A stretch of 64,000 nucleotides of DNA from Phytoseiulus persimilis. Lineage: Eukaryota; Arthropoda; Arachnida; Mesostigmata; Phytoseiidae. A program made the translations under genes and the position numbers. The notes below the pieces were generated by a model. The model was not told where the DNA came from. It saw only the letters and a program-made list of their open reading frames with translations, and made no database searches. Positions 5,263 to 36,711 of the stretch are shown here, in pieces. Numbering within the stretch: position 1 is the stretch's first letter; each line of letters starts with the position of its first letter. The DNA is taken from assembly GCA_037576195.1 (NCBI GenBank), contig CM075102.1, positions 4,154,001-4,218,000 of the forward strand. Direction: 5' to 3'.

Positions 5263-6408
5263 ATGCCGAAATACGATGCTGCTCGATCCTCCTTGTACCG
5301 GGAACGGTCGAAGATCAGGCCGTCCCTGCCCAAGTTGAGGCAAGATATCGTGCTCGAAGGACCCTGGAAGAGAACGAGGGCAGACGGAGAGTTCTCGTTG
5401 TTCGATGAAGGAACGAGCCGCAGGCTTCTAGGTTCCAGCACAGCTGAGATGGTCAAAGTTCTGTGCAACGCACCGATTGTCTACATGGATGGGACATTCA
5501 GCGTGGTCCGTGGCTTGTTCCACCAGCTCTACAGCCTTTACACCATGTCTAAGAATCAGATGGTTCCTCCTGTTTTCTTCCTGCTTCACGATAAACAGAA
5601 AGAAACGTACCTCAAGATGTTTGAGCATTTGAAGAACTGCGCAATCTCCATGGGGGAGATCTTTGATACTCCAACTTCCCAGATTGATTTCGAGATTGGC
5701 ATGTTGAGAGCCATCGAGCTAGAATTCCCAACGGCAGAAATAAGAGGCTGTACTTTCCATTCCACACAATGTCTTTGGGGGAAAGCTCAATCAGTGGGAC
5801 TCAGCCGCTTCTACGCAGACGCCGGAGTGAAAAGGTTGGTTCGTTCGTGCATAGCGCTCGCCCTGGTGCCTCTGAGTCAAACTGATGATGCCTGGCTTGC
5901 GATCGAAGCCGAATCGCTTGGCATCGAACACGTAGCCCTTCAGCAGTTGGACGCGTTCAAAACATACTCCATCGACACATTGTTGGAGAACACGACCGCC
6001 TTCCCCAGAGGTCTTTGGAATCGATATAGAAATTCCGTACCCCAAACCACCAATCATCTTGAAGTTAGGCATCAGGCTCTGAGCATCAACTACAGATCGC
6101 CCAGGCAGTTCAGTGTGGAAGAAACTTCCAGAACGTTTTATGGATGCTCTAGGCTGCTTCTAGTTCTAGATGCCCTCCACAGCAAAAAGCACGTCAATCT
6201 CTCCGAGATGATTAAAGAACTACAGGAGCAGGAGGCGAAATACAATGCTCAGATGTTGATGCTCCGGATGGGGCAGTATCCGCCGCGGAAGTCCAACAAA
6301 TACGAGGTCCTCAACGAACGCCTCATCACCTTTGTGGATGAATACGAACATGATCAATTGACATTGATCCACTATATCCATAATGTCGCTTGCAACCTAC
6401 ACTTCTAA
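5263..6408 (+). CDS. MULE-type (Mutator-like) transposase
   Basis: A 381-codon frame from an ATG. The MULE catalytic core is visible: the first aspartate in YMDGTF (residue 76), the second in SQIDFEIGML (residue 142), the conserved GCTFHSTQ block (162-169), and the terminal TTNHLEVRH signature with E266 and H270. Such enzymes cut and move DNA elements in the nucleus. The frame is open back to about 5229 but no FLYWCH or other N-terminal zinc finger is seen, so the DNA-binding part is either absent or on a lost exon. All core residues are kept with no internal stop, which makes this the best-preserved transposase in the window. Host domestication is possible but not shown. Confidence 0.85.
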   Translation: MPKYDAARSSLYRERSKIRPSLPKLRQDIVLEGPWKRTRADGEFSLFDEGTSRRLLGSSTAEMVKVLCNAPIVYMDGTFSVVRGLFHQLYSLYTMSKNQMVPPVFFLLHDKQKETYLKMFEHLKNCAISMGEIFDTPTSQIDFEIGMLRAIELEFPTAEIRGCTFHSTQCLWGKAQSVGLSRFYADAGVKRLVRSCIALALVPLSQTDDAWLAIEAESLGIEHVALQQLDAFKTYSIDTLLENTTAFPRGLWNRYRNSVPQTTNHLEVRHQALSINYRSPRQFSVEETSRTFYGCSRLLLVLDALHSKKHVNLSEMIKELQEQEAKYNAQMLMLRMGQYPPRKSNKYEVLNERLITFVDEYEHDQLTLIHYIHNVACNLHF

Positions 6409-12870: not shown

Positions 12871-13444
12871 CTCAGATTCTCCTTGAAAGGGAGACTGACC
12901 ATGTTCCCTGGCCATGGACTTCTTCCAGCCTCTCTAGATTATTTTTGAAACAAGGGTCTAGCCGGTCAGGTGCCCCACCTCGTCGGATTTTCCTGAAAAC
13001 TGCAGGATCGTGTTCCCCATGTGGAAGAACGTATTCCTGAAGTTTTCAGCCTTCTCCGTTACCTAGATCCGAATCTATTAACATTAATTAAAAATAAGTC
13101 ATTTGTACCCGCATGGTCGAGAGCAAACTTAAAATCGTTATATCTCGAGAACCACTGGGCGTACAGGGTTGAACGACAACTTTTTGGAAAGCTCTCTTGG
13201 AGTGCCATCTTTCCATCCAGTGATTTGATCGCATGATTCCAGAGGCATCAAAAATCGAGAGTTTCTCAATTAAGATGGTTATTACCCTTCCCGTCCAAGA
13301 ATCGGCGAAGACCATAATGCGGCCCTGAGTAACCTCTTCGTACTCAAGAAGTTCCATCAAAATCGAAGCTTAGCCTTCGGAGTTATCAGTCGGAGTAGGT
13401 AACCGACCAGACCCCTCCCTCACTTCGGAGTCCGGAAGTTCGAC
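12871..13444 (-). repeat. Left arm of a roughly 580-bp inverted repeat
   Basis: Reverse complement of 14964-15554 over nearly its whole length, with scattered mismatches and small indels. The outer end reads CTCAGATTC.CCTTGAAAGG in both arms. The inner end includes the last codons of the SWIM-domain frame (PDSEVREGSGRLPT). Confidence 0.9.
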
Positions 13445-14963: not shown

Positions 14964-15554
14964 GACCGAATTTCCAGACTCCGAAGTGAGAGAGGGGTCT
15001 GGTCGCTTACCTACTCGGAGCGATGACTCCGAAGGCTAAGCTTCGATTTTGATAGAATTTCTTGAGTACGAAGAGGGTACTCAGGGCTGCATTCTGGTCT
15101 TCGCCGATTCTTGGCCGGCCGCGGGAAGGGCATTAACCATCTTAATTGGGAAACCCTCGATTTTTGATGCCTTTGGAATCATGCGATCATATGACTTGAA
15201 ATCACTATATGAAAATATGGCCCTCGAAGAAAGCTTTCCAAAAAGTTGTCGTTCAACGCTGTACGCCCAGTGATTCGCGAGATATAACGATTTTAAGTTT
15301 GCTCTCGACCATGCGGATTCAAATGAACTATTTTTAATTATTGTTCATAGATTCGGATCTAGGCAACGGAAAATGCTGGAAACTTCAGGAATACGTTCTT
15401 CCACATAGGGAACACGATCCTGCAGTTTTCAGGAAAATCCGACGAGGTGGGGCACCTGACCGGCCAGACCCTTGTTTCAAAAATAATCTAGAGAGGCTGG
15501 AAGAAGTCCATGGCCAAGGAACATGGTCAGTCTCCCTTTCAAGGCGAATCTGAG
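14964..15554 (+). repeat. Right arm of the roughly 580-bp inverted repeat
   Basis: Pairs with 12871-13444. The plus strand starts inside the coding-like peptide and runs through AT-rich sequence to CCTTGAAAGG/CGAATCTGAG near 15554. Confidence 0.9.
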
Positions 15555-23058: not shown

Positions 23059-23900
23059 CTACTCCGACTGCGAAAAGGTTGAGTCGCCCCACATCATTGG
23101 CTCGGTTTCCTGCCCGTTCGTTCGGTGCCACGTCGTCCCTCCGGCCACCAGCCGCTCCTCTGCTGGCCCAGCGGGCTGGACTTTTGCTATGCGGTTACGA
23201 TGCCACCATTTTCCGTCGTCCGTGCTGTACACGTTTCTTCCTTTTCTTCGTGTGATCTGTACCGGAGGTCCGAACTTGGCTTCGCCCTTTCCTGCCTGTG
23301 GTTTCCTTGTTCGCATCCACTGCCCTGGATACAAAGTGTCCTCAACCGCGGCCCTTCGTTGGTCAGCGTACTTCTTCTGTTGTTGCTGTTTCTTCTCAAC
23401 CCTGGCGCGCACCAATGTTTCGTTTCTGTTCCCGGATCCTGGGGCTCCTGCGACATCTAGTTTGGTCCTCATTCGTCGTCCGTGTAGTAACTCCGATGGT
23501 GATCTTCCCGTTGTTGCCTGCGGCGTCGCGTTGTAAGCCCCGACGATCTGGGCGATTCTTCTCGGTACGTCTCCGCCAAGTCGGGATGCTGTTTCTAGAA
23601 AACCGCCCAGCGTACGATTGAAACGTTCCACAAGCGCATTTCCCATCGGGTGATACACTGCCGTTTTATGATGCGAGATTCCATGTTCGTTCAGAAATCG
23701 AGTGAACTCCCCGCTCAGAAATTGGGGTCCGTTGTCGCTGGATACATACTTCGGAATACCCTCTCGGTCGAACAGGCGCTGGAACATGTTTACCACCTGG
23801 CGGGTTGTCACCTCCGGCAGCAACTCCACCTCTGCGCATTTCGAATAGTAGTCAATCACAACCAGCGCGAAACGGTGTCGGGATCCTGCTGAGTGCGCCA
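23059..23900 (-). pseudogene. Ty3/Gypsy integrase, truncated at its N-terminus
   Basis: A single frame with the DD35E core: ALVVIDYYSKCAEV (first D), YVSSDNGPQFLSGEF (second D) and GNALVERFNRTL (E). It is followed by NATPQATTGRSPSELLHGRR and a C-terminal DNA-binding part (YPGQWMRTRKP, GKWWHRNRIAKVQP). The HHCC zinc domain that should lie upstream is replaced by LTR sequence, so this is an internally deleted copy. The core residues are intact, suggesting the deletion is recent or the frame has been kept. Confidence 0.88.
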
Positions 23901-23903
23901 AAC

Positions 23904-24080
23904 GTGGTGTCGCGTAGTGAACCACACGTACCGTCGTTCTGCGAGAGACACTCATGTTTATTGAACATTCCCTTATATCTAGCAGCGCGGCACCTTGGCC
24001 TACTGCGGGGAGATCTCTTCCGATTCCCTCGCCTTATCCATCGTATCCCTTAGTCCTCGTATCCCTACGCGAATACTACA
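23904..24080 (-). repeat. 5' LTR of the nested Ty3 derivative
   Basis: Starts TGTAGTATTCG, carries AATAAA (minus strand) and ends at ..GCGACACCAC. It is followed by TTTGGCGC, resembling the beginning of a primer-binding site. Confidence 0.65.
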
Positions 24081-24456
24081 CTATGTTGAAGGCCTCCGCC
24101 CAGAAGGTTGACGGTAATCCTGAATGGGCTAGCATCGTTCTCGCTTTCTCGCTGATCGTTCGCATCGCGCGCTCCGCCGAGCCATTGGATGCCGGAGAAA
24201 ATTGAACTGTGAATTCATGCCGAATACCTTTCTTTCTGAAGTACTCCTTCACGCGATCATTCGCATACTCCGTACCGTTGTCGCTCCTCAGTGTTTTCGT
24301 CTTGTTTCCACTGAGTCGTTCAACGGACACAACGAAATTTTTCAGATGATCGAACACTTCACCTTTCGATCGCATGAAATACACGAAGGTCATCTTGGTC
24401 AGATCATCGATGAAAATCAGGAAGTAACGATAACCACTCATGCTAGTAACATTCAT
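24076..24456 (-). pseudogene. Copia integrase core
   Basis: Encodes YFLIFIDDLTKMTFVYFM with the first catalytic aspartate, LRSDNGTEYANDRVKEYF with the second, and SNGSAERAMRTISEKARTML with the glutamate. It ends ..FWAEAFN where the nested element inserted. It is separated from the upstream gag-protease frame by a small frame change near 24458. Confidence 0.88.
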
Positions 24457-24459
24457 TGG

Positions 24460-25963
24460 TCAACAAACGTCTGTGTGGATAAGTTCTAATTTCTGCTTCG
24501 ATTGAGACTCTGAACGTCGAAACGGTGCTCTGTCTTGCTTGCCTTCGGCACAGGCGCCACACACTGGCAGCATCTTCGGAACTTGATATTTAGCGCCTCT
24601 CGCCAACCCTTGAGGTAACAGTTTCATGCTTTCGTAGTTCAAGTGACCTAATCTTCTGTGCCACAATTCGAAGTCTCCGTCGCTCGCTCTTGTCATCAAG
24701 ACGCTCGCCGAGCAGCATCTAAGTTGATATAATCCACTCGCATTGCAAACGGCTTCTGCGCATAGCTCCCCATCTGGATCCCGAATCTCACACCTTCGCT
24801 TGTTGCAGAAGATGGTTCTGAAGCCTTCAAGGCTGATCTGCTTTACGCTCAGGAGATTCACGTTCCAATCCGTAACATACAGAACGTTCGTCAAACGGGT
24901 CGGACACAACTTGCCTTGCACTCGAAGCTTCAGTTGAACATCTCCGAAACCTTTTGATTCAAGAACTTGACCGTTTGCAGTGGCAATTGACTCCTTCGGA
25001 CCGTCAGTTCTCAGATTGATGAAGAGGTGCTTGCTCCTGGACATGTGCACACTGGCACCCGAGTCTACGAACCAGTCGTCTGACTCAACACTGGAGCAGC
25101 ATACCACTCTCTCGGTCTCTTCTTTTTCGTCCCACATAACTTCCGCGATGTGTCCACGCTCACCGCTGGACTCACAATCTTTTGCCATAAGACCGAACTT
25201 CTTCCACCTGTTGCACTTACCACGGAATCTCGCAGCTTCACCTCTGTAGCCTTTGTTATTTCGGTTATCATTCCTGAACTGTGGTTGTTCTCCTCTCCGG
25301 TCACTGTTCCTGAACTGAGACTGTTCTCCACTTCCGCGTAGAACCTGGCGACCCGCCAGTGCAGACTCTTGCTTCTGTACTTCCTGACGCGCTGCTTCAG
25401 CCAGCAAGCGCTCCTTCACCATTTCTGTCGTGATCAGATCGCCCACGCCCGAAATGCTCTGGATTAACGGGTTGAATTCCTCTGGTAACTTCATCAGAAT
25501 GAGACCAGCCAGCAGACGATCTTTGATTTCTCCATCGATGGCTTTCAACTTCTGCGCTGCACTCATCTTCCGGTTCAGGTACTCCTCCATACCCTTGCAG
25601 TCGCTGAATCGTACACTGGTCAGAAGAGCTACTTCTCTGTACAGACCTTTCGGCTGGTACAATTTTTCCAGCTCATCCCAGATCTCTTTCCCAGTTTTCT
25701 TGTCCCGGATTGAAGAGAAAAGGCTGCTCATGATCCCTGATACAATAGCACCTTTCGCTCTTCTCTCTTGACGATCATCCTTTCTTGAGCCGTCGACGAA
25801 ATCCCATCAATCACAGTTGAACAGGTGGGATTCCATTGCGAATTTCCAGTCAAAAGTCCAGATGATTGGAAGCTCCTTTCAACTTCTCGAATGAGCTTGG
25901 TACAGCGACATTCTGCACGACTGCTCCGGACCCTGCTGACGTTGCACAATCGTTCGGTGCCAT
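24460..25963 (-). pseudogene. Copia gag-protease-GAG_pre-integrase region
   Basis: Gag starts at an ATG at 25963 (MAPNDCATSAGSG, then VAVPSSFEKLKGASN). Frame changes occur between 25850 and 25731, after which a 423-codon frame runs to 24460. It contains the gag UBN2-type region (KEIWDELEKLYQPKG), a damaged zinc knuckle (CNRWKKFGLMAKDC, with the second cysteine replaced by tryptophan), the aspartic protease site (WFVDSGASVHMS), and the pre-integrase zinc region (LWHRRLGHLNYESM ... CGACAEGK). The long open frame suggests fairly recent activity, but the early frameshifts and lost cysteine make this copy defective. Confidence 0.88.
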
Positions 25964-26577: not shown

Positions 26578-28335
26578 CAAATCTATGGATGAAAAACTCG
26601 CCTACAAAATTTCCCCTGCCCTACGAGCCAAGCAGTCCAACAAGGGAACGTTGCATGTAAGCGGCGCTCTGCTGTTCTGCAGCACTTGCAATGTACCCGT
26701 GGATCACCTCTGAAAGCATTCCTGCGAGAAACATCTTGCTACATCTGTTCATCTGAAAAGGACGGGAGCGAACGAGGCTTCGGAGAAAAAAAAACATTAA
26801 CTACAAACCGTAGTCACAGAACTATTCGCGCAACAAACACAGCAGCAACTACAACGGAAGATTGAGCTTCTAGGCCTTATCGAGGAACTCTGTGGTGCGA
26901 ACATTCCCCTCTATGTACTCGATCGTTCCCCCCCCCCTCAGAGCTTATCTGGAAGCGAATTTGAAGAACATTGGCGTACTCCCATCCTCAGCTTAGTTGA
27001 GACAAACTTACCTCCCAAAGGTTTTCGAGAAACATTCGAAAGAGCTCAAAGAACTGCTGGAGTACACAACGTCGCTGGCTCTCGTTTGCGACGAGACCAC
27101 CGACGCTCAAGATCGTTACGTGCTCAATCTTTTCGCGATCAGATGTCTCGAAGGTCGTCCGATTCAGGCCCCGCACAAGTTACAAGCTCTTCTCATGGCT
27201 TCCATAGTTCTCGAGTCGACGAATTTCAAGACCGTGAGTGAGACTGTGCTCACAGAACTCAGTAAATACGCAATCCCTTTTTCGAAGGTAAGCGCGTTCG
27301 TAACGGACCATGCTGCCTACATGCGTAAAGCATGGAGGGCGAGCTTAAAGGCCGTTCTCCGGAATGCTGTACACGTCACATGCTCAGCGCATTTGTTGGA
27401 TCTGATCTGTGAGATTTGGCAAAACGAGTTCACGTCCATCAACCAGCTTGTTTCCTCGGTTAAGAAGGCTTTCACTGCGTGCCCTCCGCGCAAAGCTCGT
27501 CTCAGATCACATTTAGCGGCAAAAGGTAAACCGGTCGCTCTTCCGCCAGCTCCAGTGGTGACTCGTTGGAATACATGGTTCCATGCGGCTCTTTACCACA
27601 AGTCCCACCTCCAAGACTACGTAGATTTCTTCGACGACGAAGCTGAGCTGAGCGGCAGCACGAATCTCTCAAAGATCATTGATTTCGGCAAATCCACTAG
27701 AATCGCCAGCGACCTCGAATGCCTGGGGAAGTACGCTCCGCGCCTGATGGCGATGCTCAAGGAATATGAAAGCGATAACGTGAAATCGCGTCTTGCTGTG
27801 AAGGGTCTCAACATGCTCGCCGAATGGCTCGAAGTTTCCGAGTTTTCTGAAAGTAACCCAAGTGGCATACGAGCCCTACAGCTGTCCCGCGAGAAACTGC
27901 GAGCATACATATCAGAGAACTCAAGCGCACTTTTTCGGCAGCCAGCATCCATGTTCTTCTCCGCCTGCCAGACTTTCGATCCCGAGTACGTTCGAATCAC
28001 CGCAGTGGCTCCTGAGTTCGTCTTCGAGCATATTCCCTGATTCGACGAAGACGACTTGGCGAAGGCGGAGCTCAGAATGTTTTTGAACTCCATCAAGGAC
28101 TTCATTAGCTTCGGTCACCCCGTGGACTTCTGGCTTGCCTCAGCCCAACCCTCCCCGGAACTTTCTCGAATAGCGCTAATTTGCCTCAGCGTCCCAGTCG
28201 GCAGTGTTGCCGCGGAGCGATCTTTTAGCATGTACTCGAAAGTACGTATTGAGAGATGACCGCCGTAGCATCGCTGAGCCAAATTTAGTCGTCTACAACA
28301 TGCTTTATCAGAACGCCGGTATGTTCTTGAGCTTG
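26578..28335 (+). pseudogene. hAT transposase, nearly full length, with a few breaks
   Basis: An N-terminal zinc finger (LLFCSTCNVPVDHL, stop, KHSCEKHLATSVH) of the CGG-binding/BED-like type begins near 26580. After a poorly preserved linker a long frame (26997-28040) carries LALVCDETTDAQDRYVLNL (first catalytic aspartate region), AFVTDHAAYMRKAW, VHVTCSAHLLDLI and APVVTRWNTWFHAALYH. One stop at 28038-28040 is followed in the same frame by FLNSIKDFISFGHPVDFWLA and the dimerisation block VAAERSFSMYSKV. A frame change at about 28235 leads to RRSIAEPNLVVYNMLYQN. Few lesions, so a fairly young loss. Target duplication not determined. Confidence 0.9.
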
Positions 28336-28722: not shown

Positions 28723-28943
28723 TGTTGGGCCGGTTGTCTCTGGGGGCTGGCCCATAGACCACAAGGAGCCCTCTCCCGGCCGTCTCTCTCGGGAGATCTG
28801 GCGTTAGATGGAAGGAAAATAAACGGACAAGTTGTCCATGAGCACTAGACCCGACTAGACTCTTTATTCTTGCAATTCGTGTATAGATCAGGCTAGATTT
28901 GAGGAACACTGAAGTTTGGTGCGACTCCCACCACAACGATACA
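28723..28943 (+). repeat. 5' LTR of the Ty3/Gypsy element
   Basis: 221 bases, TGTTGGGCCGG...CGATACA. Shares CTCTGGGGGCTGGCCCATAG and CTCTCTCGGGAGATCTGG with the 3' LTR, plus TCTTTATTCTT, which could act in 3' end formation. Confidence 0.92.
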
Positions 28944-29077
28944 ACGAGTGGCGACGAGGAACTCATTAGTGATTGATCAACACGAAGTGAAAAGGACCTA
29001 CGACGTTCGTGACGCGAGGAGTGACTAGACTTCAATGAAGAACTACAAGCCTACAGCCAACGGACAACCTCAGAAAG

Positions 29078-29884
29078 ATGGCAAAATACACGGGAGAAGA
29101 TTTGCAAGTAATTGTCCAGAGAACGATCGCGAACCTCAACCTCGATTCGCGGAGCGGTGGATCGGAAAAACCACATGAAGGCAAAAAAGACTACAAACTC
29201 AGCATCGACAGGATCCCAGAATTCAAGTTCGACGCCGAGAACGGTAACAACTTCAAAAATTGTATCGAACGATACCAATCCAGAGTGGAATCAGATGCAG
29301 GACGCCTTCGAAGCAGTGACTCACGAGCCCAGTTCATCCTCTTGAGACTGGGCACGGAGGAATACAACCAATTTTCTCGGAGAATGGTGCGGAGGAGAAT
29401 CATGGAACTCGACTTCGAAGAGCTGATCGAGGAGCTGAGTTTCTTCTTCGACCCTCCAATCACACTTTTCAGAAGTCGCCTCAAATTCTTCGACATCACA
29501 ATTGATACGTCCAGCTATCGCGAACTGTGGGGCTGCATAAAAGTCCAATCAGCCATTGGCGACCTCAACTTCTGTGCAACCGAAGACTTGCACTGGTTCG
29601 TCGCAATCAACGCTCTGAAAGGCCCTGAACACAAACTGGCAAGAATGCGAGCGATGAACTTCGTCGAAACTCAGGAGAACCCTACCTTCGACGAGATGTT
29701 GGAAGACTTGGAGCTGTTCGAGTCAATCCGCAAAGACGCGATGGAAGACAACGAAAGACGAAACCCATCCGTCTATCAAGTGAACGGCAGATTCAACGGC
29801 CCGGGACCCAGCAGCTCGCACCTTGCCTGCTACGGGTGCTGTGGGGAAAACCCACGACTTCAAGCAGTGCCGATTCAAAAATGA
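29078..29884 (+). pseudogene. Ty3/Gypsy gag
   Basis: Starts at ATG 29078 (MAKYTGEDLQVIVQRTIANL). The middle part (IPEFKFDAENGNNFKNCIER, later FFFDPPITLFRSRLKFFDI) has the layout of arthropod Gypsy gag capsid-like proteins. The frame enters a zinc-knuckle region (ACYGC) and then shifts; the remaining knuckle (CKLCKKKKHLAKVC) is in the next frame from about 29823. The overlap of roughly 60 bases could be a programmed frameshift, but no slippery site is obvious. Confidence 0.85.
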
Positions 29885-30435
29885 AACGTGCAAACTCTGC
29901 AAAAAGAAAAAGCACCTAGCAAAAGTGTGCAGGAAGGCAAACAACCCCGACTCAAATTGCTCGAGGCCACGCAGACTCAGGGTAAACCAAGTGAGAGCAA
30001 CGGTAAACCAGTCAACAATCAACCTCATCCACACAACTGTAACCATCAAAGGACTACCAGTAAAGATGACAATCGATACGGGAGCTGAGGTCACCCTGAT
30101 CAACCGGAGAACCTGGAAACAACTTGGGAGCCCGAGGTTGAGCCCGTCCCCGTGCAGATTGACGGCGGCGAATGGACTAGCATTGAAATCCTACGGCGTG
30201 TTGCGATGCGAAGTCAACCTGAAGGACGAAACCTTTCAAGGAAGCTGCCATGTCACAGACAACTGTTCGATCATGGGCCTGGATTGGAGCACGAAAGAAA
30301 GGAAAGGGTTCATCTTGAATCCTAACCTATGGACACAACCGATTCTGCGAGTCAACGAGCAACAGCCTCCAAACAAAGCTACAACAAAGATGCTCGAAAC
30401 CCTGAAGCGCAAGTTCCCCATGGTTACAAGCAAGT
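29823..30435 (+). pseudogene. Ty3/Gypsy protease with zinc knuckle
   Basis: Contains CKLCKKKKHLAKVCRKAN, then the retropepsin active site MTIDTGAEVTLINRRTW, and IMGLDWSTKERKGF before a spacer ending TLKRKFPMV. At about 30435 the sequence jumps straight into the middle of the RT palm, so the N-terminal RT half (fingers and first aspartate) is deleted. Confidence 0.88.
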
Positions 30436-30441
30436 CAACAC

Positions 30442-31575
30442 TTGCTAACCATCAACACCCCGAAGGGCCTGTTCAAGATGGAGAGACTACCGTTCGGAGT
30501 CAAAACAGCACCAAGCATTTTTCAACGACTGATGGATACGATCGTGCAAGACCTGCCAGGTGCGACAGCTCACCTAGACGACATCATCGTCACAAGCAAA
30601 GACGAGGAAGAGCACGAGAAAAGGCTGCTCAAACTGTTCCAACGACTCACCGAATTCGGGCTCAACGTTCGACTCGACAAGAGCACACTCATGGAGCCCG
30701 AGATCACGTACCTGGGGTTCATCATCAACAAGGAAGAAAGAAAACCAGGCCCTGAGAAGACGGAGGCCATCGCAAACATGCAAGCCCCTTCGAACATCAC
30801 TCAGCTGAGAGCATTCCTGGGGATGATTAACTTCTACAACAACTTCGTCCCGGACATCGCAAACCTACGGGAACCTCTCAACAAACTCCTGAAGAAGAAC
30901 GCATCGTTCAACTGGGATGCCCAGTGCGAACAAGCCTTCAAGGAAGCAAAGGAGATCCTTCAGTCAAACCTGCTACTCACGCATTTCGACCCGAACCTCC
31001 CAATGGTGATATCAGCAGACGCCTCGGGATATGACCTGGGTTGCGTGATTCCCCACGAGTTCCCGAACGGCACCCGCAAGGCAATCCAACACGCGGCAAG
31101 ATCGCTGACGGAAGCAGAGAAAAAGTACGCCCAAATAGAGAAAATGGCGCTCGCTCTCGTCTTCGCGGTCTGTGAATTTCACAAATACATTTACGGCCGG
31201 AAGTTCATCCTGAACACCGATCACAAGCCGCTGGTCACAATCTTCAAGCCCGGAGGAGGCATTTCGGCTCACACGGCTAACCGTCTACAGCGTTGGGCGC
31301 TGATCCTAATAAACTACGACTTCGAAATTCGTTACGTCAACACAAAAGACTTCGGAGAGGCCGCCGCGCTCAGTCGCTTACTCGACGAGCGACGGGCGAA
31401 CACTGGAGAGGAAGACACTGTCATCGCATGCGCCGAAACTGAAATCAAGGAAGATCTCGAAGGAAGCATCAAAGAGATGCCGATCACAGCCGAAGTGGTC
31501 AAGAGCGAAACAGAAAAGTGCCCTACTGCAAACAGCGATGAAATACACTTTCTCGGGCCAATGGCCAAAGATTGA
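30442..31575 (+). pseudogene. Ty3/Gypsy reverse transcriptase (C-terminal half) and RNase H
   Basis: Begins inside the RT at LTINTPKGLFKMERLPFGVK (the TTG at 30442 is not a genuine start). The active site reads AHLDDIIVTS, followed by the thumb (LRAFLGMINFYNNFVPDIAN) and RNase H blocks (ISADASGYDLGCVI, QIEKMALALVFAV, ILNTDHKPLVTIF). The usual D-A-L-S-R motif reads AAALSRL. The frame stays open to 31575, just before the SINE. Missing the first third of RT, it cannot copy nucleic acid. Confidence 0.9.
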
Positions 31576-31670
31576 CCGCCAAAACGAACTATTCAGCCTA
31601 GCTTCGAGGAAGGACAACTTCAGCATCGTGAACGACTGTTCAATCCATGACTCCAGGGTGGTCGTCCCTG

Positions 31671-31942
31671 ACGGCTCGTTGGCCGTGTGACATAAACCAA
31701 CGCCTTGGGTGCCACGCTAAGCTAGCAATCGCGGGTTCGATCCCCGGCCGGGACAATAAATTTCTCATATGGTAAAAAGAGGGTTCAATTTATATCAGAA
31801 TTAAATCTGAACCATCTTAAGACCCAAGAACACCGCCCGCAATGGGACTTGCGAGGCGATAGGGAGTGTCACTGAAGCAATACCGAAAGGTGATCCCGGG
31901 ACACTTCTGAGGGCTGGCTGAGAGGTTCAGCCGGAAAACAGA
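31671..31942 (+). mobile_element. tRNA-derived SINE, copy 2, inside the Ty3 pol
   Basis: Same family as 9748-10031, opposite orientation. The A box is degraded by one base (TGGCCGTGTGA); the B box GGTTCGATCCC is intact. Flanking duplication GTGGTCGTCCCTG (31658-31670) and ATGGTCGTTCCTG (31945-31957), 11 of 13 matching. The host frame reads RVVVP on both sides, showing the SINE duplicated the pol target. Confidence 0.9.
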
Positions 31943-31944
31943 GG

Positions 31945-32930
31945 ATGGTCGTTCCTGCTCCATTGAAGAAGAGCATACTGAGAACTCTTCATGAAGGACA
32001 CCCTGGAATGACGGAGATGAAAAATCTCGCCCGACAATACGTCTTCTGGCCGGGCATGGACGAAGACATCGAGAAAACAGTCCGCAGTTGTGACCAATGC
32101 CAACGTGCGGGGAAATCATCCCGTAGAGCGCGTTTGGAGCCAAGACCGATGTTCAAGGGCGGTGGAAACGAGTCCACATGGACTATGCGGGTCCAATCGA
32201 CGGATTTCACTATCTGGTTGTCGTCGACTCGTTCTCGAAATGGCCAGAAGTCCTGCGAACAAAGAAATTCGCAGCGGAAGCCACCATCGAGTTACTGGAG
32301 GAGCTGTTCACAAGACACGGCTACCCGGAAGAGCTCGTGTCAGACAACGGTGTACAGTTCAACGGAACACCAACAAAAGATTTCTGCAAGCAGAAAGGCA
32401 TCAAGAAAATTTTCACGGCACCTTACTGCCCCATGTCAAACGGACATGCAGAGCGCTTCGTCGACACTTTCAAACGTTCCTTGAGAAAAATGAAGGGAGA
32501 GAGGGGGAGCACGGTTCACAAAATCCGAGTTTTCCTGAGAACCTATCGGAATACTCCAAACCGTGCAGTCGAAGAGAAGTGCCCAGCCGAACTCTTCCTC
32601 GGGCGCCGGCTCCGCTCTCATTTGGACCTGCTCCGCCCGTCCACGGCGGTGAACTCCGTGAACCGTGAGAACACCCCGACATAATCTTAGTCGAGAAAAA
32701 TGAAGAACGACTACGACAGGCACCACGGCGTTGCAAGGAAAACGTTCGATCGAGACGACATGGTGTACGCTACCGAACATCGGAACAACAAAACGTTCTG
32801 GGTGCCAGGAACCGTGAAGAAGCGAACCGGCAACGTCAACTACGAAGTCGAGATCGACCGAAAAATAGAAAGAGAGCATGCGAATCAGATGAGGCCCCGG
32901 TTCGGCGGTCAGACTCCTAAATTGGACTGA
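31945..32930 (+). pseudogene. Ty3/Gypsy integrase
   Basis: The HHCC zinc domain (LHEGHPGMTEMKNLARQYVF ... CDQCQ) is in the frame 31945-32160. The core continues after a one-base shift in 32178-32684 with LVVVDSFSKWPEV, ELVSDNGVQFNGTPT and MSNGHAERFVDTFKRSLRK, keeping the D-D-E triad. A further frame change leads to 32700-32930 with the C-terminal DNA-binding part (WVPGTVKKRTGNVNYEVEI, HANQMRPRFGG). Two frameshifts make it inactive. Confidence 0.9.
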
Positions 32931-33301
32931 GAGGACCCCGTTGAACAGCTTGTACTCCAGCTACCACACTTTAGAAGACTTCGGGAGCCAACAAGGATCA
33001 AGCCAACGGAAACAGCAAGGGCCGATCCCCCATCTCCACCCAACGGGTTCCCGAAACACAGCTCCCAAAGATCGTCGAACGACTCGAGAGCAAAGTGTCA
33101 GCTAACGCTCGCCAAGTGGGACGCGCCGTCGCCGAGGCCATCCGAACCATCCGAGAGACCCGACATTCCATGGGACCAACTCTGAGCGAACAAACTACTC
33201 CGGCGAAAGACTCCGAGCCGAGCCGAGTATCGAATTGTCCAAAGGGGAGCAGAGCAGGATGACGTCAAGTCGACGACTGCACCGAGCAATCTTCCACGCT
33301 G

Positions 33302-33880
33302 TTGCCGACCGAGGAGCCGGGCCCCTTGAACGTGACGCTTGGTCTCATGGACATTGAGACCGCTTCGATGAAACGAGACGCGAACAACTCAATGTTGAAC
33401 ATTCCCGATCCAAAACGGGATAAAGAAAACACCATTTCGCTCGAAGAGACCAACCCAACGGCGGCGGATGAGGCGACAGCCGCGCTGGACATCCGCGGAA
33501 TCGAAGAGATCCCAAGTCAACCCAAGACAAGGTCAACACGACGTTTCAGGCCCCCCGATCCGGTTACCCTTGAGTTGGCTAGCCGACCGCTCGTCCGGGG
33601 CCAAACGAAGAGGAAATCAGCCTCTCCGGTAGAGAGGGGCAAGCACGCTCCGCGGCGCCAATTAAAACCTAGGTTACCCGAGAGGAAGGTCCGAACCGCA
33701 CCAGAGCAACCCTACGACGATGTTGATGCCGTCGTGTCAGGAAACTATTGGCATTGTGATGTTCCTGAACATCCTCACCGCAATCGGATGGCTGGTTTTC
33801 AACCGACCGGACTCAAAACCCCTAAGGGCGTGATCCCTCAAGTTCGTCGCCAGGGTGGCCGGGTAGGAACCCGGCCATAG
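33302..33880 (+). pseudogene. Ty3/Gypsy pol C-terminal tail
   Basis: Open frame rich in Arg, Pro and Glu with RSTRRFRPPDPVTLEL, a type of tail often found after the integrase of arthropod Gypsy elements. It ends shortly before the polypurine tract and 3' LTR. No enzymatic motif. Confidence 0.6.
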
Positions 33881-33895
33881 AAAAAGATGGGGGTG

Positions 33896-34111
33896 TGTTG
33901 TGCCGGCCGTCTCTGGGGGCTGGCCCATAGACCACAACGAGCCCTCTCCCGGCTGTCTCTCTCGGGAGATCTGGTGTTAGATGGAAGGAAAATGAGTGTT
34001 GTCCATGAGTACTAGATCCGACTAGACTCTTTATTCTTCTAACTCCGTGTATAGATTAGGCTAGATTGCAGGAACACAGAGGTTTTGTGCTAGTCCCATT
34101 ACAACGATACA
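33896..34111 (+). repeat. 3' LTR of the Ty3/Gypsy element
   Basis: 216 bases, TGTTGTGCCGG...CGATACA. It lacks about five bases present in the 5' LTR after GGAAAAT. Confidence 0.92.
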
Positions 34112-34574
34112 GCGCCTTCATGAAGCTACTTTTGCTCCATATCGTATCATACGTTCCGTTTTCCAGGCTGTAACTAGTTGAATACTGAGTCGGTACTCTC
34201 TTTCTCCAAATGGTGTTTCCGGATATGACGCATACGGGCGGGAATCCATCGATTATCTTACTTTCGATTCTCACCCGTTTCGAGACCGAAATTGAATGAG
34301 AATGTAACTTTAGAGCGGAACTAAGGCATGTGATGAATATGATGATTTTACGAATTTCATCCTCATGTTTTGAGGCCCCAGGGCAGTATCGGGAGAAGTC
34401 CCATATGCCTCTGTGTTATTCCCGACGCACCCCACATGCCCATCTCTGTATTATCAAATTCGGCGTGGGACAGTTTGTGCACACTCTTTTTTAGTCCTGG
34501 GCATTCCTTCTGATTACGCACACGTGATATCAACTCCGAATGCTGTTCATGTCAAAGATAAGTTAATTCCAATT
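34112..34574. other. AT-richer spacer, nothing recognised
   Basis: No motif-bearing frame and no repeat seen between the 3' LTR and the palindrome cluster. Confidence 0.4.
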
Positions 34575-35731
34575 TAGACATCATTTTCCGGAAGATGATA
34601 AATCGATTTCCGGACTGGCCAGTCCGATAAATCATTCTTCTTGGTCTGATGGTCCGGGAAGTGATTTCCAGTAAGGAGAGACCCTGCTGAGGGACTCCAC
34701 GCCGCTTCAGCCCTGATTCTGCTGATCCGAACATCCTCCATCCAATCTGAGCATACCTCTCCAAACCTGGAGGGATGATTCCGGGACCAATCTCACCATA
34801 CTCCTCCAAACCTGGAGGCTGGTTCCAAGATCGACCTGACCATAGTTCTCGGATTCTGAGGAGGCGATTGCGGAGTCCATCTGACCATAACAACATTGAC
34901 CAATCAACAAGAAGGAAATATGGTTTCAGGAATGATGCTGACCCAATAAAGAGAGAGAAAAGTGTCTCGATGCCAGGGACCGCAGTGCAACCGCGCCAGA
35001 TAGGCTTGCTCGGCGACTTCGGCCATCAGATTAACGCCTGGAGAACTGGTTCCGCGTTGAGCTTGTACACGAAATCCATTTCCGGTCATCCATCGACCAC
35101 AAAATGAATTAGGCAAGACACGGAGGACCCGCCCAAGCCGCATGAAGCTTGTGTTGAGGCGAATGGTTTCAAAAGTTCGTCTGCGTCGTGCAATGATATA
35201 TTCGAACTGACTCCGCTGAACTTTTGGACCAGTGGACATGGCAAACACACGTTTCCGATCGGTCCCAGAATCACCCCTCCAGACTTGGAAAGTATGGTCA
35301 GATTGGCCCTGGAATCAGCCCTCTGGAAAATCACTTTCCGGACCATCGGACCAGGACAAATGATTTATCGGACTGACTGGTCCGAATAATGATCGGTCTG
35401 GTTATCTATCGGAGGAGTCAGTCCGATAAATCATCGGTCTGTGGCGGATGATTTTCCGGACTTGGCAGAACGACCCGATCCGATCGGCAGTGCGGTGCTA
35501 AATGTTTCAGTGGAGGATGTTCGGATCAGCAGAATCAGGGCTGAAGCGGTGTGGAATCCCTCAGCAGGGTCTCTCCTCACGGGAAATCACTTTCCGGACC
35601 ATCAGACCAAGAAGAATGATTTATCGGACTGGCCAGTCCGGAAATAGATTTATCGGACCAGGTGGTCCGAAAATTCAGATTCCGGACCGGTCGGTCCGCC
35701 GCGGGTTCCGGACTCCGGAAAATGATGTCTA
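34575..35731. repeat. Cluster of short palindromes with inverted outer blocks
   Basis: The outer ends are inverted copies: TAGACATCATTTTCCGGA at 34575-34592 and its reverse complement at 35714-35731. An inverted pair of about 160 bases follows inward on each side (CATTCTTCTTGGTCTGATGG, CTTCAGCCCTGATTCTGCTG, GATCCGAACATCCTCCA). The right side has an extra 70 bases with more palindromes. Perfect or near-perfect palindromes include GGACTGGCCAGTCC (both sides), TCGGACCAGGTGGTCCGA, GGACCGGTCGGTCC and TTCCGGACTCCGGAA, spaced by ATAAATCATT-like strings. A third, direct copy of one block lies at 35327-35390. Inner units CCTCCAAACCTGGAGG recur about every 45 bases. No protein is supported. Confidence 0.8.
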
Positions 35732-36711
35732 TTCCAATTCCTTGATCAAAATGCTCGGCAATCCTGGTTGTACGAGCGGACTCCAAAGTTTGTATTGGAG
35801 CAATGCAGAAGTTGTTAATCCGGAAACCTGCACACGCGCAGCAGGGGAAAACTCAGATCTTTCCCTCAGACACATTATTCGACTCCCTTGCTCCAGAGCA
35901 GACAGGGCTCCTCCGATCACGCCTCTTAGATCGAAGTGCTCTCTCGATCAGACAGCGCCCATGGGCGGGCACAGGCATCGAGACGAGCTAGCCGGCACAT
36001 CGCTGCCAGTTATATCCGCCTTTGTGCTCCCCAATCGGTCCGATCATCTTGCAGAGCTACACACACACCCAGCAATGTACGGCAGGCCGAACCCGGGTGT
36101 TTTTTCCGAAGAAGTTCGAAAAAATCCGTACTAAGCGAAAACATGACGCCGTTCCACGGCCGTTGTTTGGTCGCGGACGCTATGACGACGAGCTCGTGCT
36201 GCTATTTCCAATCTCATCCTTTCCTTGATGGTAAGAATGCCGTGAGCCGTTCTACCCTGATCCTAGGAGGTTCGCCGCTCGAGGTTCCACGTTTCTTCCC
36301 CGCAGCCATCATCATACATCCTGCAATCCCAGTAGGTTTCGCAAATAACCACATTTTCAAATGATCGCGGGTACGGTTAGCCGATAAGCGCAACCTCATA
36401 ACCGCGGTTACAACCGCAAATCATTCAGAGAGTAATCTTTAGCATGGCTGGGATCTACTGCAATGAGATTTTTAGCGACAACGTCGGCAACCAGATGATT
36501 CTATGGACATAGAACCGTCAACTCAGCTCCTAGAGGCCCCACCTCATATCTTTAGCATAAATGAAGCCCCCGAGGAATTCACGTCAAGAGAGCATCAGCT
36601 TGTGAGAGTTACTGGACAATACATGTACACAACGCCTGCGGCACATGGTGGAGAGACTAGTTCTCTGTGACACTATTTCTCGCTCCACAAGAGACCGTTC
36701 TGGAATGCTTC
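35732..36711. other. Unassigned region
   Basis: Several overlapping frames without recognisable motifs. No repeat or splice-bounded exon was seen. Confidence 0.35.

Follow-up and report, generated by a model that had tools for sequence, protein, structure and literature searches.

The palindrome cluster at positions 34575-35731 of the window, by which we mean the whole 64,000-nucleotide stretch of Phytoseiulus persimilis DNA analysed here, represents a single copy of a mobile element that is non-coding and moves by cut and paste. Very probably it is a non-autonomous foldback DNA transposon, with hAT as the most likely superfamily. The element has perfect terminal inverted repeats (TIRs), an 8-bp target-site duplication (TSD) and a dispersed family of copies with the same ends. 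It is read as a non-autonomous hAT-type copy because relatives with these ends and with TSDs carry hAT-like transposase fragments. In our judgement the element is ordinary in kind and its architecture is somewhat unusual for hAT. The palindrome cluster thus becomes an annotated mobile-element family.

Ends and parts of the window copy

The outer 18-mer TAGACATCATTTTCCGGA stands at 34575-34592 (+) and again, perfectly inverted, at 35714-35731 (-). At three or fewer mismatches 0.06 matches are expected by chance, and two matches occurred in none of 100 shuffles. Each end is immediately flanked by TTCCAATT (34567-34574 and 35732-35739), the two copies being identical in 8 of 8 positions. These flanks are an 8-bp TSD, and 34575-35731 is accordingly a single insertion 1157 bp long. 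The TSD, which identifies the element, is missing from the earlier note on this DNA. Insertion would have been of the cut-and-paste type, duplicating 8 bp of target sequence.

Within the TIRs lie inverted subterminal arms of 144 bp, a feature of the foldback class: the left arm at 34597-34740 (+) is 96% complementary to its inverted partner, the right arm at 35511-35654 (-). An inner copy of the subterminal block at 35325-35393 (+) is a direct copy of 35581-35649 with 83% identity and holds the dyad at 35369-35384. Together with the perfect 18-mer pair, these blocks bear out the inverted and direct outer copies described earlier. The internal filler of 584 bp (34741-35324) contains 45-bp minisatellite units at 34742-34889 (+) and the same minisatellite in inverted orientation at 35257-35323 (-). 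Three other loci (L005, which is the place of L011, L019 and L042) share this filler over nearly its full length with 79-89% identity, and two (L009 and L010) share it in part. No Pfam match was obtained for the 114-aa ORF on the minus strand of the filler (34904-35248). The GC content of the window is about 50% and a tRNA search found none.

A dispersed family in the genome

Searching the genome for the outer 18-mer, as the earlier note had advised, revealed a dispersed family: at three or fewer mismatches the genome contains 773 TIR-like sites, whereas the reversed control yields 33. Among the 100 TIR sites listed, 33 are perfect and most others end in CCGTA, a sibling type; the commonest one-mismatch TIR among them has the ending TTTTCCGTA. 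The left arm (166 bases) has at least 110 matches in the 181-Mb genome, a lower bound obtained with 40 of 101 candidates scored. Most of this genome is contained in four contigs of 54.7, 52.0, 38.9 and 28.1 Mb, and its 112 matches to cuticle proteins, against none in 14 control genomes, suggest an arthropod.

We fetched 34 regions and 4 small ones and inspected them for complete copies. Scanning by rule for inward TIR pairs yielded 27 possibilities, a total that counts alternative pairings. Their flanks agree in 8 of 8 positions in 10 pairs, in 7 of 8 in 2, in 6 of 8 in 2 and in at most 4 of 8 in 13, some of these 13 being alternative pairings. An eleventh copy with an exact TSD (L032) fell outside the pairing rule of the scan. 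Copies with an exact 8-bp TSD therefore number 11, the window copy included, and range in length from 470 bp to 14.25 kb. Three loci (L011, L031 and L044) look like proper TIR pairs without a duplication.

Two further intervals, C3:21252709-21261271 and C2:17139106-17142036, were considered as single coding elements and rejected, since neither shows an 8-bp duplication and both contain other coding fragments, Tc1/mariner-like and LINE-like by eye. The right end of the former may be part of a separate copy of 535 bp with a 7/8 TSD. A named match for the family may exist in curated repeat collections.

Coding relatives and superfamily assignment

Broken hAT-like transposase fragments are found between family TIRs in two TSD-bounded copies. 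One, L024, measures 3766 bp and has the TSD CACCGGAA; the other, spanning L025 and L026 at C3:30570251-30584502, measures 14,252 bp, has the TSD ATGGCGGC and retains intact TIRs. The 18-bp TIR delimits these two as well as the window copy, and is thus common to non-coding and coding-derived copies. The transposase fragments of L024 and L025 are 94% identical over 259 aa, and their coding sequence is split over several frames. Further fragments with 73-87% identity lie at C3:23.24 Mb, C2:45.14 Mb, C3:24.74 Mb, C4:26.73 Mb and C4:5.06 Mb.

A hAT transposase has an RNase H core of the hAT type, a BED finger and a dimerisation region at its C terminus. No Pfam family was matched by the core fragments (L025:5664-6440 and L024:4369-5142), and the last fragment of L025 has a weak match to Dimer_Tnp_hAT (0.038, below the curated cut-off). 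Two related longer genes, L045 and L046, align with the family fragments, which are 33% identical to L045. L045 matches DUF659 (5e-8) and zf-BED (0.0012), both just under the curated cut-offs. A BED motif was seen in these two related genes and not in the family's own fragments. A profile built from four sequences aligned with the window ORF 26997-28040 over 118 columns, the TDEW and C-x2-H motifs among them, with an E value of 1.9e-5 and a probability of 77.7; this hAT-type ORF is followed by a Dimer_Tnp_hAT match above cut-off. Among solved structures, no hAT protein was retrieved by either of two transposase pieces or by a profile, and NCBIfam, a library of prokaryote families, gave no match. 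Although no single profile of the family passes threshold, the profile evidence from the coding relatives and the 8-bp TSDs make hAT the best assignment.

Target-site duplications of hAT elements commonly follow the preference nTnnnnAn, which is not a defining trait. It was not seen here: of 12 TSDs, 6 have T at position 2 and 4 have A at position 7. Mutator-like elements have TSDs near 9 bp; the TSDs of this family are 8 bp, and no MULE match was found in the eight scanned fragments of L024 and L025.

The mover could instead belong to another superfamily whose TSDs measure some 8 bp (P, Merlin or Mutator-like), the hAT-like fragments being nested insertions, and the hAT profile scores under cut-off, the TSDs without the hAT consensus and the presence of a MULE gene elsewhere in the window would suit such an origin, as would the fact that foldbacks are mostly credited to Mutator in the study of Tetris (PMC4079207). 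Against this, one and the same transposase is enclosed by the family TIRs in two separately located copies bounded by TSDs, and the 8-bp TSDs of 11 copies as well as the lack of a MULE match in the eight scanned L024 and L025 fragments also speak against another superfamily, which we regard as quite improbable. On the preferred hAT assignment, the transposase of the coding relatives would act in trans on the window copy.

Structure and distribution of the dyads

The palindromes follow a common scheme, CGGAC-N6-GTCCG. The 64-kb window has five such dyads with exact arms, starting at 34611, 35369, 35625, 35654 and 35683; all five lie inside the element, and they carry four different 6-bp cores. 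Two are copies of the perfect 16-bp palindrome CGGAC-TGGCCA-GTCCG, at 34611-34626 and 35625-35640. In the remaining three the centre is imperfect: CGGAC-TGACTG-GTCCG at 35369-35384, CGGAC-CAGGTG-GTCCG at 35654-35669 and CGGAC-CGGTCG-GTCCG at 35683-35698. A degenerate dyad, CGGAG-GAGTCA-GTCCG, lies at 35410-35425. The earlier note had spoken of perfect short palindromes. The clustering of CGGAC/GTCCG dyads stands, but no sequence in the element other than CGGACTGGCCAGTCCG, in its two copies, is perfectly palindromic over 12 bp or more; the other centres, among them those of GGACCGGTCGGTCC and TCGGACCAGGTGGTCCGA, are mismatched. The perfect palindrome would be a dyad whose core is symmetric by chance.

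At the right end the dyads at 35625, 35654 and 35683 are spaced exactly 29 bp apart, the middle one thus lying 29 bp from both neighbours. Alignment of the ends shows that the left end of the window copy lacks the two outermost dyads present at the right end. With up to one change per arm, 447 dyads were counted against 66 in the reversed control, in a sample of 325,633 bases made up of the window and 35 fetched loci that were picked because the family is present there. The CGGAC-N6-GTCCG dyads in the aligned ends are subterminal repeats, a trait of hAT elements.

Hairpins or protein binding sites

Different cores between the same arms had been taken earlier to suggest either hairpins maintained by compensatory change or binding sites for a dimeric protein. 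Three homologous dyads were compared across 41 ends selected among the fetched loci, with cells that count sequences and not independent events: 126 changes were one-sided, 7 compensatory and 6 non-pairing double changes (23/1/0, 58/5/2 and 45/1/4 for the individual dyads). Pairing in these ends stayed near the shuffled mean, the largest excess being 29 versus 26.2 and the largest deficit 11 versus 14.1. By column, majority identity in the aligned ends is 0.949 for the arms, 0.836 for the cores and 0.874 for the linkers; the P values of 1e-5 and 0.004 are indicative only, since the columns are not independent.

The palindromes might nevertheless be selected as RNA or DNA hairpins, for example as a source of small RNAs, and be kept by compensatory change. 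The transcript folding check proposed earlier did yield a strong structure, the RNA strand of 35600-35731 folding at -57.1 kcal/mol with a z score of -5.09 and none of 200 shuffles as good, but such a fold is expected of any dyad-rich DNA. Among 212 distinct dyads, a set that includes chance sites, the outermost core pair is paired at 0.505, against a mean of 0.319 and a largest value of 0.429 in shuffles. The two inner core pairs, however, show no excess in the same set (0.292 and 0.330 versus 0.310 and 0.314), and Rfam at the gathering threshold gave no match within the window. With one-sided changes so far exceeding compensatory ones, hairpins kept by compensatory change are not supported, although the pairing of the outermost core pair speaks partly for them, and we consider selection for such hairpins highly improbable.

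A dimeric DNA-binding protein would be expected to leave a trace of this sort: half-sites that are conserved and regularly spaced, around cores that vary more freely. From the sequence pattern and by analogy with Hermes we favour the reading that the dyads are putative sites for such a protein, perhaps for BED fingers of the transposase. The degree of conservation (95% in the half-site arms versus 84% in the cores and 87% in the linkers) fits that part of the earlier proposal. By the same analogy we lean slightly towards the transposase as the protein that would bind the dyads.

Even within a transposon the dyads might be by-products of tandem amplification or arm copying, or sites for a host protein. 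Tandem units of 29 bp and 215 bp would copy dyads mechanically, and no BED domain appears in the family's own fragments; yet it is the cores and linkers that drift, the arms being conserved, and the same arms are found again in non-homologous dyads whose cores differ. We therefore hold a by-product or host-site origin to be unlikely, if clearly less so than hairpins or another superfamily. On the favoured reading of the dyads as sites of the transposase, its dimers would bind the CGGAC half-sites head to head in the 16-bp dyads, BED being weakly detected in the related genes. These dyads recur at 29-bp steps along the right end, and the dimers would bring both ends together, as in Hermes with its quasi-palindromic subterminal repeats. 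Similar dyads would have arisen from tandem duplication of end sequence together with arm-to-arm copying.

Growth of the element ends

In the long C3 copy, which has unequal arms, 215-bp units are present about 5.6 times in the left arm and about 44 times in the right, the latter figure being 9.47 kb of left-arm matches divided by 215. A dyad-bearing 29-bp unit is repeated 4.9 times in the same copy. These arrays are satellite-like growth within a transposon end. Tandem duplication and copying of the kind proposed for the dyads would have given the 29-bp and 215-bp arrays in the related copies.

Minisatellite units of 45 bp also adjoin, or lie between, sibling-family TIRs ending TTTTCCGTA (L025 1502-2185, L044, L029 and L030).

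As a tentative proposal, which we rate at a little under even chances, the family could represent a hAT lineage with expandable end arrays of symmetric dimer sites. Growth by 29-bp and 215-bp units would multiply putative docking sites and seed satellite DNA inside a TSD-bounded transposon, and the foldback class would be neither Mutator nor P.

Comparison with known systems

The earlier note knew no named element with this layout. In kind, however, the element belongs to a dispersed family of TSD-flanked DNA transposons with a foldback layout like that of Tetris, a foldback transposon of Drosophila virilis (PMC4079207). The study of Tetris reports no transposase for it, points to Mutator and notes that some foldbacks are not Mutator (PMC4079207). 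By layout the likeness comprises long TIRs, modular and rearranged copies, and TSDs of 8-10 bp, as against 8 bp here (PMC4079207). Tetris has a tandem unit of about 220 bp in the TIR, which also forms satellite-like arrays similar to the unit arrays of the mite family, where the unit is 215 bp; these units were compared by description (PMC4079207). We also count as a likeness the shorter, MITE-like relative of Tetris, DAIBAM (PMC4079207). Tetris is without a known coding copy, whereas here two TSD-bounded copies contain hAT-like transposase fragments (PMC4079207).

In Hermes, a hAT element with 8-bp TSDs, binding of the quasi-palindrome STR1-STR2 is cooperative and involves two BED domains (PMC10368747). 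The 8-bp TSD and quasi-palindromic subterminal repeats are points of likeness; the sites of Hermes are of the AAGT type, whereas the present element has CGGAC half-sites, symmetric dyads at both ends and long inverted arms (PMC10368747). In Ac/Ds of maize, TIRs and some subterminal repeats are likewise common to coding copies and heterogeneous non-autonomous ones, while foldback arms and palindromic dyads, features of the element described here, are absent from the start of the abstract on Ac/Ds (PMC3260210).

If the hAT assignment is true, foldback architecture, which the Tetris study mostly credits to Mutator-like elements, would be linked to hAT (PMC4079207). The same assignment would make the family a case in which satellite-like arrays expand within the ends of a transposon bounded by a TSD. 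In addition, the half-site variants present in the family form a natural series for studying how a transposase dimer recognises subterminal repeats in pairs. No paper joining foldback architecture to a hAT transposase came up in open-access full text, where a related search led to a Mutator-like element; this coverage is too narrow to call hAT foldbacks undescribed. In Galileo and FB of Drosophila, as in the element described here, a foldback architecture is combined with repeats that vary inside the TIRs; both differ from the present element in transposase superfamily and TSD length.

Other features of the window

The ORF at 26997-28040 belongs to a second, different hAT-type transposase gene (26997-28244, +), with DUF659 below cut-off in the ORF and Dimer_Tnp_hAT above cut-off at 28116-28244 (C2:4182116-4182244). 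Direct repeats of about 220 bp that are 86% identical (28723-28943 and 33896-34111) surround protease, reverse transcriptase and RNase H ORFs on the plus strand, and 28723-34111 (+) is probably an LTR retrotransposon. Copia-type gag and an integrase core lie at 23059-25731 (-), and an ORF at 5263-6408 (+) has a MULE transposase domain (E 5.4e-11). An inverted pair at 12871-13442 and 14967-15554 extends over 588 bp with 90% identity; by eye, no TSD was seen in its flanks.
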